NCBI GenBank assembly: GCA_001824215.1
Contig: MHWS01000003.1
Coordinates: forward strand, 1-41,561
DNA length: 41,561 nt
Source: Candidatus Zambryskibacteria bacterium RIFCSPLOWO2_12_FULL_39_16
Lineage (GTDB): Bacteria > Patescibacteriota > Minisyncoccia > Phycocordibacterales > WO2-35-19
Direction of reading: 5' to 3'
Shown: one piece after another, positions 37,132 through 41,561 of the stretch
Numbering within the stretch: position 1 is the stretch's first letter
Layout of the letters: each line of letters opens with the position of its first letter
Position numbers and translations under genes: made by a program
Notes under the pieces: model-generated
The model's input: only the letters and a program-made list of their open reading frames with translations
What the model was told of the DNA's origin: nothing
The model's database searches: none

Positions 37132-38706
37132 CTACTCTATCTTAAATTTAAACATCATCCCACTTTCGAGGTGTTCGGCAATATGACAATGCGCCATCCA
37201 TGTACCAGGATTTTCCATGTCTACCAGAATTTCAATAGTATCTCCTTTTTGAATAAGAGTCGTATCTTTCCAAACTAGATTATCATTTTTTACACCGTTT
37301 GTTGAAAGAACTAGAAATTTCTGACCGTGAATATGAAATGGGTGTTGCATCGGATGCATGGATTTTGGATCATTGTATATCTTTATCTTAACCTTATCAC
37401 CAACCTTAAACTCCCAATCAATATCGTCATTAGTTTTTTTAGTATCTTGGTCAATAATTTTCCATTTAATAACATTTGCCAGAGACATCGAATTCATCAT
37501 TGCCATGTTGTCTTCCCACTCAATCTTTTCATTGTCATTCCCGCCCATCATCATTCCACCATTACTCATCACTGCCCCATCGGGCATCATATGACTTCCC
37601 ATCATGCCCATATCCCCCATATCAACTGTAAAAACAAGACTCTTGTCTGCCTTTTTATCAAAATACTGACGAAGTAGTTCAATACTTGCAATGGTGTCAC
37701 TATTTGTTCGAAGCGTGAGAAATTGAGACCTGTACGAAGTTGCTACTTTTTCAGAAGATACATTTATTATTCCTATTGTGTATGTTTTCTCTGGAGTTTT
37801 ATGTTGGAGTGTATAAGTACCAGAAGTATCAAACAGAACTTCGATCACGGCACGCTCTGAAGGGCCAAGAAGTACACTGTCAACAAACGTCTCGTGTTCA
37901 TACTTTCCATTGTCGCCACCGACAAGCTTCATCTTTGCGCCAGGGATAGTGAGATTGAATACGCGAGTGTTCGCTGTATTAGTTATGTAAAAACGAGCTA
38001 CCTCACCTTGTTTAACAGTAAGGTTGTAGTTGTCTAACCCATTTACAAGCATCACATTCCCGAAACGACCCATCAGTGCATGGTCAGCAACAGAAACAAA
38101 CGGAGCGACTTTTCCATTTTCAATCAAAATATCATCAACCATAAGTGGCACCTCCTCATTCACTGGAGACCAATAGTTAGGATTATCCGAAGCCACTATG
38201 TAGTTACCGTAGAGACCCAATTCCTGTGCGTAGTCTTCTCTTACGTGGGGATGGTACCAATAGACACCTTCGTCTGGAAACTTTATTTTGTAGCTAAATG
38301 ATTGGCCGATACCTACCTCCCTTTGTGTCACATCCGGTACTCCGTCAAATCTGTTATCCAATCGAACTCCGTGTGAATGAATTGTGGTCGGTACATCAGT
38401 ATTATTAGTAAAATTAATGGTGACTTCTGATCCCTTGGAAACCTTAATGATAGGTCCTGGGATTGAACCGTTATAAGCAAGCATTTTTATTTCATTGCCC
38501 GCAATTACTTTTTTAACAATACTTGCCGTAAGATTGTACGTATCGCCATTTTTAAGTTCGACAATTTCCGGCTGTTTGGCGAGGAGGTAGTTTGAATTAT
38601 CCTGCACTTCAGGTTTTGGAGAAATCGTATTGTTGCTAAATATAAAATAGCCACCGATTAAAACAATGATGCCAATAATGGTGTAAATGATTTTTTGATT
38701 TTTCAT
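37132..38706 (-). CDS. Multicopper oxidase (CueO/laccase-like)
   Basis: A 524-residue membrane-anchored oxidase that uses four copper ions. The start at 38706 is chosen because the next gene upstream in the operon begins with the same MKNQKII; a second ATG lies nine bases earlier. After the anchor (~6-24) come three cupredoxin domains. Copper motifs: HSHG (110-113), WYHPH (150-154), HPMQHPFHIHG, and HCHIAEHLESGMM with type 1 ligands C507, H512 and M517. A Met-rich insertion (MGDMGMMGSHMM) resembles the one that binds Cu(I) in CueO. Role likely oxidation of Cu(I) at the cell surface. Confidence 0.93.
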   Translation of the reverse strand: MKNQKIIYTIIGIIVLIGGYFIFSNNTISPKPEVQDNSNYLLAKQPEIVELKNGDTYNLTASIVKKVIAGNEIKMLAYNGSIPGPIIKVSKGSEVTINFTNNTDVPTTIHSHGVRLDNRFDGVPDVTQREVGIGQSFSYKIKFPDEGVYWYHPHVREDYAQELGLYGNYIVASDNPNYWSPVNEEVPLMVDDILIENGKVAPFVSVADHALMGRFGNVMLVNGLDNYNLTVKQGEVARFYITNTANTRVFNLTIPGAKMKLVGGDNGKYEHETFVDSVLLGPSERAVIEVLFDTSGTYTLQHKTPEKTYTIGIINVSSEKVATSYRSQFLTLRTNSDTIASIELLRQYFDKKADKSLVFTVDMGDMGMMGSHMMPDGAVMSNGGMMMGGNDNEKIEWEDNMAMMNSMSLANVIKWKIIDQDTKKTNDDIDWEFKVGDKVKIKIYNDPKSMHPMQHPFHIHGQKFLVLSTNGVKNDNLVWKDTTLIQKGDTIEILVDMENPGTWMAHCHIAEHLESGMMFKFKIE

Positions 38707-38726
38707 ATACTTCATATCTAACAGAT

Positions 38727-40292
38727 TTACGGGGTAACATTTATATCAAGCTCTAGTTTCAATACCGGATTAATTGCGGAATCGGTTTCTATATAGACAA
38801 TCTTTTTAGCGGGACCCGTTCCTTGGGGACCGTGTGCCGCTGGGTCTACTAATACATCAATGTTTATTTCTTTTCCTGGATTCACTACTTCATCTATTTG
38901 CGATGAAGGTCCTCCACGACCAGGCATACCAAATGGCCCCTTACGCGAGGTTTCGTTTATGAGCGTTGCTTCTGTGCACATACACGATGTATATATTTTG
39001 GTAATTTTAATTTGAGAGTCTCCGGAATTTTTTAATTTGAATGAATGTTCTACCTTTCCCTTAGCCATCGAAACTAAGCCAAAATCAAATGACTTTTCTT
39101 CTGACACAAGCTCGCTGTAGTTTCCAGAACCGATCCCACCCTCTCTATACCACAAACTTATTCCATTGGGCATCTTACCAACTTTTATTTTCACAGTTTC
39201 TTTTCCAAGAACAGTATCAATCACAGACACATCATCACTAAGTAGATTGGTCACATACACGAATTTTCCGTCTTTGGAAACAATCACTCCGTGTGGCGCT
39301 GACCCAGCAAGAACCGTTTGAGTTACTTTCATTTCTTGTAGATCAATTTTATAAACCAGGTTCCCGGTAGGTTGATCAAAATAATAGCCCTGGTCAGCAA
39401 CAAAAACAAAGCGAGAATCGGGCGTCGGATAAATCTGAACTGGGCCCTTCGCTTCTTTCGGCAAATCAACATAACTCAATTTTGCGGAAGCAATGTCGTA
39501 CACCGCCAAACTTTTTGTGTCATATACCGAGGCCAGAGCATACTTGCCATCCGGCGTCACCCCCGTCTGCACCGCTGCTCCCTTGAATTCAATATCTCTT
39601 AAAACAAAGCTTTCTATATCAAGAATTCCCAAACTTTTGCCTCCCAGCATTGCGATATAGGCGGTCTTGCCATCTGGGGAAATACGGAGCCCGTGAGGTC
39701 CATCGCCCTTTTTCGTAACGGTTTCTTCCTCCACTTCAAACGTAGTGGCATTTATCTTATAGATGACTCCTTTTTCCTGCGAAGCGACAATGGCATAGGA
39801 ACTATCCGGGGTAAGAGAAACATGCGAGAGATGAAGATTCTGTCCTATTTCAATTCTTTTTACAATCGCGTCTGAAAATGGGTCTATGACGATCACTTCA
39901 TCTTTACTTTTTCCCATATCCACTACTTCATCGCCATGACCTTCATCGGCTTGCGCTCTCGGTATGATCCGAAAAGACATTTCCATCTCTTCTTCTGCCG
40001 CGTTGGCGGTCACCCACACACTTTTATTATCTGGTGCAACTTGGACATTGTGGGCCATGTAGCCGACGGTCATACCATTTTTGTCTTCGGATAGATCAAT
40101 TCTTTTCAAGACCTGATTTGTCTTTGTGTCTATCACCGCTATTTCCCCAGTTCCTTCAACCGCCACATACGCTTTTTCCAGTACTCCAGAAACAATTCTA
40201 TTGCCGCCTTTGTCTCCAGTGCTCAAAACAATAATAACTCCGACGAGAGTGATAAAAAGAATTGAGGTAATAATGATTTTTTGATTTTTCAT
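38727..40292 (-). CDS. YVTN beta-propeller fused to a DUF1573 domain
   Basis: A 521-residue membrane-anchored protein (helix ~6-24). Residues ~40-385 are YVTN/YncE-type propeller repeats: AYVAVEGTGEIAVID, PHGLRISPDGKTAYIA, KFVYVTNLLSDDVSVID and more. Residues ~391-521 form a DUF1573-like Ig domain (SFDFGLVSMAKGKVEHSFKL, then TSCMCTEATL with Cys437 and Cys439). The insertion EGHGDEVVDMGK near 115 is rich in His, Asp and Glu. It sits between the copper ATPase and the oxidase, all in one direction with gaps of 20-32 bases. The CxC pair could bind copper (inference). Confidence 0.85.
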   Translation of the reverse strand: MKNQKIIITSILFITLVGVIIVLSTGDKGGNRIVSGVLEKAYVAVEGTGEIAVIDTKTNQVLKRIDLSEDKNGMTVGYMAHNVQVAPDNKSVWVTANAAEEEMEMSFRIIPRAQADEGHGDEVVDMGKSKDEVIVIDPFSDAIVKRIEIGQNLHLSHVSLTPDSSYAIVASQEKGVIYKINATTFEVEEETVTKKGDGPHGLRISPDGKTAYIAMLGGKSLGILDIESFVLRDIEFKGAAVQTGVTPDGKYALASVYDTKSLAVYDIASAKLSYVDLPKEAKGPVQIYPTPDSRFVFVADQGYYFDQPTGNLVYKIDLQEMKVTQTVLAGSAPHGVIVSKDGKFVYVTNLLSDDVSVIDTVLGKETVKIKVGKMPNGISLWYREGGIGSGNYSELVSEEKSFDFGLVSMAKGKVEHSFKLKNSGDSQIKITKIYTSCMCTEATLINETSRKGPFGMPGRGGPSSQIDEVVNPGKEINIDVLVDPAAHGPQGTGPAKKIVYIETDSAINPVLKLELDINVTP

Positions 40293-40324: not shown

Positions 40325-41561
40325 TCATATAGGAACCAGATCTTTCTCGACACGCTTGAGCAAGACTGCGTTCGTCGCCACAATTATCGAAGAGATACTC
40401 ATAAGAAGTGCCGCGAATTCTGGACGAAGCATGATACCAAAACTTGGATATAAGATTCCGCCAGCAATCGGTATGGCAAGGACATTATAAATTGAGGCCC
40501 AGAAAAGATTCTGCTTCATTTTGCGCACCGTTGCCTTACTGAGTGTAATGGCTCGAAGTATATCCAAAGGATCAGATTTCATAAGAACAACTTTTGCTGT
40601 TTCAATCGCTATATCCGTGCCTGCACCAATGGCAATACCGACATCAGATTGAGCGAGTGCCGGTGCATCGTTAACACCATCACCAACCATTGCCGTAAAT
40701 TTTCCTTCTTCTTGAAGTTTTTTGACGTAGCTCGCTTTGTCCGCAGGCATTACTTCTGCAAACACTCTTTCTATACCAATTTGACTCGCTACTTTCTCTG
40801 CGGTCATTTTATTGTCGCCGGTGATCATAGCAATCTCAATGCCTAAAGCCTTTAAACGATTGACTGCTTTTATGGCGTTAGGTTTTATTGGATCTTGCGC
40901 TCCGATAACAGCTTTGATGACTCCGTCAACAGCAAGAACCATTATCGTTTCTCCTTTTTCTAGAAACTCATTTATTTTTTTCTCCAATGTACCAAGAGTA
41001 ATGTTACTTTCTCTCATAAGCCTCACCGTGCCGATGAGTACAGGTTTCCCATTCACTACAGCTCTCACTCCCAAACCGGAAAGGTTTTCAAATTTATCAA
41101 CTGATTCTGGCAATGTAAGGCCGCGCACTTTAATCTCATCGAGCACAGCGCCTGCCAAAGGGTGGGATGATTTCGCTTCTGTCGCACCGACTAAGCGAAG
41201 TGCTTCATCTGCGTCGTATCCATCTGCCGTAGCTATATCGGTTACTTTTGGTTTTCCTTCGGTGAGTGTGCCTGTTTTGTCGAGTACAATGGCTTGAATT
41301 TTTGAGACTTGTTCGAGAGTCGGGGCGTCTTTTATAAGAATATTGTGTTTTGCTCCAAGTCCAGTACCGACAGCTACAGCCGTCGGAGTGGCAAGACCGA
41401 GCGCATCGGGGCAGGCAATGACAATCGTAGCGATCGCAAAGGAAAGTGCCAAGAGAAGCGGTGAGCCGACAATAAAATGCCAAATAATAAATACCAAAAG
41501 ACCTGATCCTACGGCCGCAATGACTAAGTACTTTGCAAACTTATCAGCAATTCTTTGTCCC
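40325..41561 (-). CDS. Cu+-type P1B ATPase, N-terminus beyond the window
   Basis: The visible 411 residues are the C-terminal two thirds of a heavy-metal P-type ATPase; the frame stays open to the window edge, so the start lies outside. Motifs: CPDALGLATPT in the metal helix, phosphorylation site VLDKTGTLTEG, SSHPLAGAV, MITGDN and MVGDGVNDAPALAQSD. Helix 7 (NLFWASIYNVLAIP) and helix 8 (PEFAALLMSISSIIVATN) match the Cu(I)-type P1B-1 signature fully, but the usual CPC is CPD. It likely exports copper and supplies the copper proteins downstream. Confidence 0.93.
   Translation of the reverse strand, partial: GQRIADKFAKYLVIAAVGSGLLVFIIWHFIVGSPLLLALSFAIATIVIACPDALGLATPTAVAVGTGLGAKHNILIKDAPTLEQVSKIQAIVLDKTGTLTEGKPKVTDIATADGYDADEALRLVGATEAKSSHPLAGAVLDEIKVRGLTLPESVDKFENLSGLGVRAVVNGKPVLIGTVRLMRESNITLGTLEKKINEFLEKGETIMVLAVDGVIKAVIGAQDPIKPNAIKAVNRLKALGIEIAMITGDNKMTAEKVASQIGIERVFAEVMPADKASYVKKLQEEGKFTAMVGDGVNDAPALAQSDVGIAIGAGTDIAIETAKVVLMKSDPLDILRAITLSKATVRKMKQNLFWASIYNVLAIPIAGGILYPSFGIMLRPEFAALLMSISSIIVATNAVLLKRVEKDLVPI

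Follow-up and report, generated by a model that had tools for sequence, protein, structure and literature searches.

The window is a whole contig of 41,561 b (G000:C3) in which three closely spaced genes lie on the minus strand: a P1B ATPase gene is followed after 32 bases by a gene for a propeller-DUF1573 fusion protein, and this after 11 bases by a multicopper oxidase (MCO) gene. The features of the locus, in plain terms, are as follows.

40325..41560, minus strand: P1B heavy-metal ATPase (P0003), C-terminal 411 residues, cut by the contig end
38727..40292, minus strand: propeller-DUF1573 fusion protein (P0001), 521 residues, from its open reading frame and Pfam matches
40221..40283, minus strand: N-terminal membrane helix of the fusion protein, residues 4-24, a helix in the AlphaFold2 model with hydrophobic sequence
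39138..40178, minus strand: seven-bladed YVTN propeller, residues 39-385, from PF21783, conservation, and model strands
39903..40001, minus strand: low-confidence blade 1 loop with Met and His, residues 98-130
38730..39110, minus strand: DUF1573 domain, residues 395-521, from PF07610
38976..38984, minus strand: C437-M438-C439 of the TSCMCT motif
37132..38715, minus strand: MCO (P0002), 527 residues, 11 bases downstream of the fusion gene

The fusion protein scored 61.8 bits against the YVTN/YncE-type propeller family PF21783 (cut-off 27.1) and 47.2 bits against PF07610 (DUF1573; cut-off 26.1), and the strand pattern of its AlphaFold2 model (mean pLDDT 89.9) has seven blades. The preliminary description of a YVTN propeller with a C-terminal DUF1573 domain and a CMC pair is borne out by the reading frame, the Pfam matches, and C437-M438-C439. 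Its placement of the gene between a copper ATPase and an MCO is correct in gene order, although the ATPase is incomplete and its metal motif is CPD, neither CPC nor CPH. Because the window is the whole contig and the gene is cut at the contig end, only the 411 C-terminal residues are present; these scored 417.8 bits against the P1B heavy-metal ATPase model TIGR01525 (cut-off 346.25), and the truncated protein scored 375.4 against the P1B copper ATPase model TIGR01511 (cut-off 397). The ATPase is 90% identical to that of G206, a genome that also has the fusion, and 89% to that of UBA926. Across the fetched loci, the membrane metal site of the P1B ATPases was CPD in 13, CPH in 31, and CPC in 21, some of the 13 CPD cases stemming from overlapping loci.

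A search with the UBA926 ATPase (L006) located the missing N-terminus (71% identical) on contig C1 of this assembly, where it runs up to the contig end; directly before it stands a gene that appears, from its sequence type as judged by eye, to encode CsoR. If the two contigs are joined through the ATPase across a gap of approximately 0.6 kb, as these matches suggest, the unit would read CsoR - P1B ATPase - propeller-DUF1573 - MCO. The MCO gene is complete; its product matches the Pfam families Cu-oxidase, Cu-oxidase_2, and Cu-oxidase_3, carries the T1-T3 ligand motifs HSHG, HPH, HPFHIHG, and HCHIAEHLESGM together with a Met-rich stretch, and is 53-60% identical to MCOs adjoining copper ATPases in other CPR. 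It scored 165.4 against the CueO equivalog NF008205, below the cut-off of 525.

Full-length fusions 73-74% identical to that of the window are found in Yonathbacteria and the GTDB family to which they belong (L002-L004, G206, and G284), a recurrence that argues against chance; in GW2011_GWA1_40_21 (L005 = G004), the fusion is split in two halves by contig ends. Propellers without DUF1573, at 45-52% identity, were found in several CPR groups (L006-L011). In a tree of the DUF1573 domain, all seven fusions formed one clade (100/100), and the stand-alone copies from four other members of the window's genus fell outside it; those four have the ordinary operon described below instead, as far as their contigs reach. 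The fusion may thus have arisen once and later moved between lineages. The genomes are mostly MAGs in overlapping sets (for example, L004 = G055 and L003 = G124), and several loci are cut by contig ends.

A P1B ATPase lies in the fetched neighborhood of 14 of the 16 distinct propeller loci, and the other two (L037 and L138) are on short contigs of 8.1 and 9.7 kb; the neighborhood expected by chance is approximately 5%, estimated from two pumps per 0.7-Mb genome. The neighborhoods were also searched for fusions standing apart from copper genes, and the fusions were not mostly copper-free. The copper linkage cannot be called complete, given that the contigs of several loci are short and that a P1B ATPase is missing from some of the long ones. 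The gene arrangements vary. The P1B ATPase (CPC) and the propeller form a single 1141-residue open reading frame in a Moraniibacteriota genome (L010:5616-9041), and in L008 one operon encodes the DUF1573-CMC protein and the propeller in two distinct genes. In L139 (7788-9674), a lipoprotein-like double propeller, in which a BNR-like propeller follows the same YVTN propeller, lies between a copper ATPase and an MCO in the same order as in the window. The best evidence that ATPase, propeller, and DUF1573 work together is that this propeller has become joined to the pump in one lineage and to DUF1573 in others.

The MCO is a less regular neighbor. It occurs at four of the 16 propeller loci (the window, L006, L007, and L139), and no MCO was found nearby at the six other fusion loci, L005 and those of Yonathbacteria among them; in the Yonathbacteria loci, a gene for a protein with CC/CNHGMA motifs stands behind the fusion, where the window has the MCO. 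The steady partner of the fusion is the ATPase. An MCO was found in 24 of the 297 genomes of the window's order, and only two of these (G000 and G057) also have the propeller. The closest relative of the window MCO (G202, 76% identical) is in a CsoR-ATPase-MCO unit without the propeller fusion, and five of eight further MCO loci pair the ATPase with the MCO, in most cases along with CsoR, and have neither propeller nor DUF1573.

In the same order, G247 and G219 (L226, L229, and L230) belong to a genus in which TGA is apparently read as Trp, as all six alignable in-frame TGA codons (three in MCO genes and three in rpoB) stand at Trp positions of relatives. A search for prfB detected only one weaker release-factor-like gene in G247, itself with three TGA codons, none in G219, and two each in G186 and G202. 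The CPR are known for reading TGA as Gly, so that TGA as Trp would be another code in this genus.

Both cysteines of the CxC pair are invariant in all 68 aligned DUF1573 domains, and the lack of conservation that would speak against the preliminary description was not seen. TSCMCT is present in 64 of the 68, usually together with AHGP and the insert GPFGMPGH, and the remaining four have CxC without the Met/His-bearing insert; more distant CPR domains have C-[MDGNTHS]-C. We refer to domains with TSCMCT, GPFGMPGH, and AHGP as the CMC copper-operon subtype. All three elements are found in the window protein, with Arg459 in place of the GMPGH His. In the propeller, H81, H157, H200, Q242, Q286, H334, and N376 stand near the start of each innermost strand, and this ring, to which each blade contributes one residue (four His, two Gln, and one Asn in all), is the same in all intact propellers. 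The ring was compared with 1l0q from the PDB alignment, as a regular expression applied to unrelated CPR propellers gave too few repeats; judged by eye, the repeats of 1l0q have M, Q, L, K, S, and A at the equivalent positions, mostly non-ligand and variable residues. From the blade topology, the Met/His-containing loop of blade 1 is predicted to lie on the same face as the ring. PDB matches of the model comprise 1l0q, YncE, NirN/NirF, NosZ, thiocyanate dehydrogenase, AztD, and many metal-free propellers.

Stand-alone DUF1573 genes were placed in context by annotating the fetched loci with profiles built from neighboring genes. The common set in CPR and Betaproteobacteria consists of CsoR, a P1B ATPase, a small membrane Cys protein, DUF1573, a CcdA-type protein (assigned from a weak PF02683 match), and the CC/CNHGMA protein, joined by one of two small families (c5/c9) and sometimes by a thioredoxin-like protein. 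In three partly overlapping samples, the genes beside stand-alone DUF1573 included the P1B ATPase in 26/37, 21/24, and 12/17 loci, the CcdA-type protein in 36/37, 21/24, and 16/17, and the CC/CNHGMA protein in 29/37, 20/24, and 5/17. DUF1573 domains picked by the Pfam model, mostly of other CxC types, had an adjoining P1B ATPase in 17 of 20 loci, so that the association with copper genes in CPR extends beyond the CMC type. These other types had been considered as a non-copper control set, which was dropped as they also occur in copper operons.

The CC/CNHGMA protein (L004:9584-10570 and homologues) has the invariant motif RPCC..N...FPDCNHGMAM and no match in Pfam or NCBIfam, and its confident AlphaFold core has no fold match in the PDB (best E 2.6). 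Among the 297 genomes of the order, 41 have both this gene and DUF1573, 13 and 8 have one of the two alone, and 235 have neither (Fisher p ~1e-30, a value that ignores relatedness). A plasmid search with this protein returned nine Burkholderia/Paraburkholderia plasmid genes annotated as hypothetical, and a search with the DUF1573 protein returned one distant Parabacteroides match only. The small membrane protein (smM; L004:7575-7970 and homologues) has a Cys/His loop, stands directly before DUF1573 in most loci, and has no Pfam match.

The domain make-up, the operon, the conservation, the gene fusions, and the recurrent linkage to ATPase, CsoR, and CcdA, all directly observed, support a role in handling copper on the outer side of the membrane, close to the pump. 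Our preferred reading, in which we have about even confidence, is that the fusion protein binds copper outside the membrane as part of a copper-export operon under CsoR control. On sensing Cu(I), CsoR would release the operon, and the P1B ATPase would export Cu(I). The fusion protein, anchored in the membrane through its N-terminal helix, could then take up the exported Cu(I) at the pump exit through its CMC pair, aided by the conserved Met of GPFGMPG and by His487 (AHGP), and either hold it or hand it to a partner. This partner may be the neighboring MCO in the window genome and the CC/CNHGMA protein in Yonathbacteria; the acceptor is not identical everywhere, given the lack of an MCO near the other fusions. 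The propeller would offer a platform for docking and, through the His/Gln/Asn ring at one channel mouth, probably a further metal site. Cu(I) binding by the fusion protein, as well as the donor and recipient named here, we infer from these observations. Neither a CcdA-type protein nor COX1 was found in the window's genome as assembled, which makes cytochrome oxidase an unlikely destination of the copper; with no COX1 present, this destination was rejected for the window genome.

DUF1573 may alternatively be a thiol-redox module, a reading we regard as unlikely. The CxC pair would cycle between dithiol and disulfide with electrons from CcdA (and the thioredoxin-like protein), keeping the Cys of outside copper proteins reduced or repairing them under copper stress, and the fusion would be a version working with another donor. 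The nearly constant CcdA-type protein at stand-alone copies speaks for CxC reduction, as do the thioredoxin-like neighbor at some of these loci and the known DUF1573 selenoproteins, which have Sec-Gly-Cys (the UGC form) at the CxC position, selenocysteine replacing the first Cys (PMC9312934; PMC13188914). The UGC form, together with CxC in non-CMC domains, suggests redox chemistry over metal transfer and thus weighs against our preferred reading, as do Arg459 at the GMPGH His position and the lack of an MCO near the other fusions. On the other hand, no CcdA was found around the fusion loci or in the whole window genome as assembled, and the fusions are accompanied by copper ATPase and CsoR without it, which speaks for a function independent of CcdA. 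Copper binding by a reduced CxC is compatible with both Cu(I) carriage and thiol cycling.

It is improbable that the protein is a new copper enzyme whose ring holds a copper site like that of nitrous oxide reductase or of thiocyanate dehydrogenase, the CMC pair of DUF1573 replacing the cupredoxin of NosZ as an electron-transfer or loading site. NosZ and thiocyanate dehydrogenase are seven-bladed propellers with channel His, and Foldseek matched the model to NosZ across both domains and also to thiocyanate dehydrogenase; the invariant four His, two Gln, and one Asn on the innermost strands, at positions that are mostly non-ligand and variable in 1l0q, would fit such a site. However, metal-free YVTN and WD40 propellers match equally well, the ring has just four His, fewer than that of NosZ, and no substrate or electron-carrier gene was recognized in the operon. 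An assignment to L-NosZ, the clade III nitrous-oxide reductase (NF052460), was rejected at 67.6 bits against an equivalog cut-off of 700.

The preliminary description proposed that the CxC pair hands copper to the MCO, which would make the fusion protein a dedicated chaperone. The genes are adjacent, the propeller-MCO neighborhood occurs again in L006, L007, and L139, and CutF and CutO provide a precedent (PMC8456105), so such a hand-over may happen in the window genome. It is not a general rule, since fusions without a nearby MCO occur in Yonathbacteria and L005, and the fusion is missing from other MCO cassettes, including that of the closest MCO. The Yonathbacteria fusions and the G202 unit indicate that MCO loading is not what keeps the fusion, and we consider a dedicated chaperone improbable. 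An S-layer-type surface or adhesion protein with copper neighbors by accident is highly improbable: the best PDB sequence and fold match is the Methanosarcina YVTN-PKD surface-layer protein 1l0q, likewise a YVTN propeller with a beta-sandwich, but the copper ATPase link recurs over many families with rearranged gene order, and the ring and CxC are invariant.

To our knowledge, DUF1573 occurs widely and has no assigned function, and no link to copper handling was found in the portions of the open-licence literature available. The conserved CsoR-P1B-DUF1573-CcdA operon gives this domain a testable role. The preliminary description knew of no described system with the gene set of the window, and none was found in the open-licence literature; the copper-handling operon is widespread in tiny CPR bacteria yet undescribed. 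If our preferred reading is true, an elaborate outside copper system is maintained in CPR bacteria, even in one with no detectable cytochrome oxidase subunit I. A bolder proposal, which we put forward tentatively and hold to be unlikely, is that the propeller holds a novel type of copper site and is linked in one chain to a Cys-Met-Cys DUF1573. CPR bacteria would then have a class of outside copper protein of their own, acting as an enzyme or a store, produced together with the pump and fused to it in one lineage.

Extracytoplasmic copper handling is of a known kind, and the parts found here are undescribed. Like NosZ, the window protein combines a seven-bladed propeller with a C-terminal domain; in NosZ this is a beta-sandwich metal domain, a cupredoxin, whereas here it is DUF1573, and the sequence is far below the NosZ family cut-offs. 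The best PDB match, 1l0q, is likewise a YVTN propeller followed by a beta-sandwich, although it has a PKD domain in place of DUF1573 and does not have the His/Gln set at the ring positions. We know of no propeller or DUF1573 in the copB-mco and copXL loci of Staphylococcus aureus. In the portions of the sources available, these operons likewise pair a P1B exporter with an MCO or a second copper-resistance gene (PMC6191537; PMC5947656). The DUF1573 selenoprotein belongs to the same Pfam family as the window protein, whereas the available portions of its descriptions mention neither a copper operon nor the CMC subtype with the GPFGMPGH insert (PMC9312934; PMC13188914). In Rhodobacter capsulatus (cutFOG), the small Cys-motif protein CutF adjoins the MCO CutO, whose activity requires CutF and is also dependent on CopA (PMC8456105). 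The likeness lies in an outside Cys-motif protein, a neighboring MCO, and a pathway with a P1B exporter. However, CutF is small, with CXXXC, a proline-rich C-terminus, and DUF2946 as its closest Pfam family, whereas the window protein is a 521-residue propeller fusion that has CxC only and ends in NVTP, without the CXXXC and C-terminal PP motif of CutF-like proteins (PMC8456105). CutF is thus no relative by the features tested, but its role for CutO is the closest functional precedent for the fusion protein.
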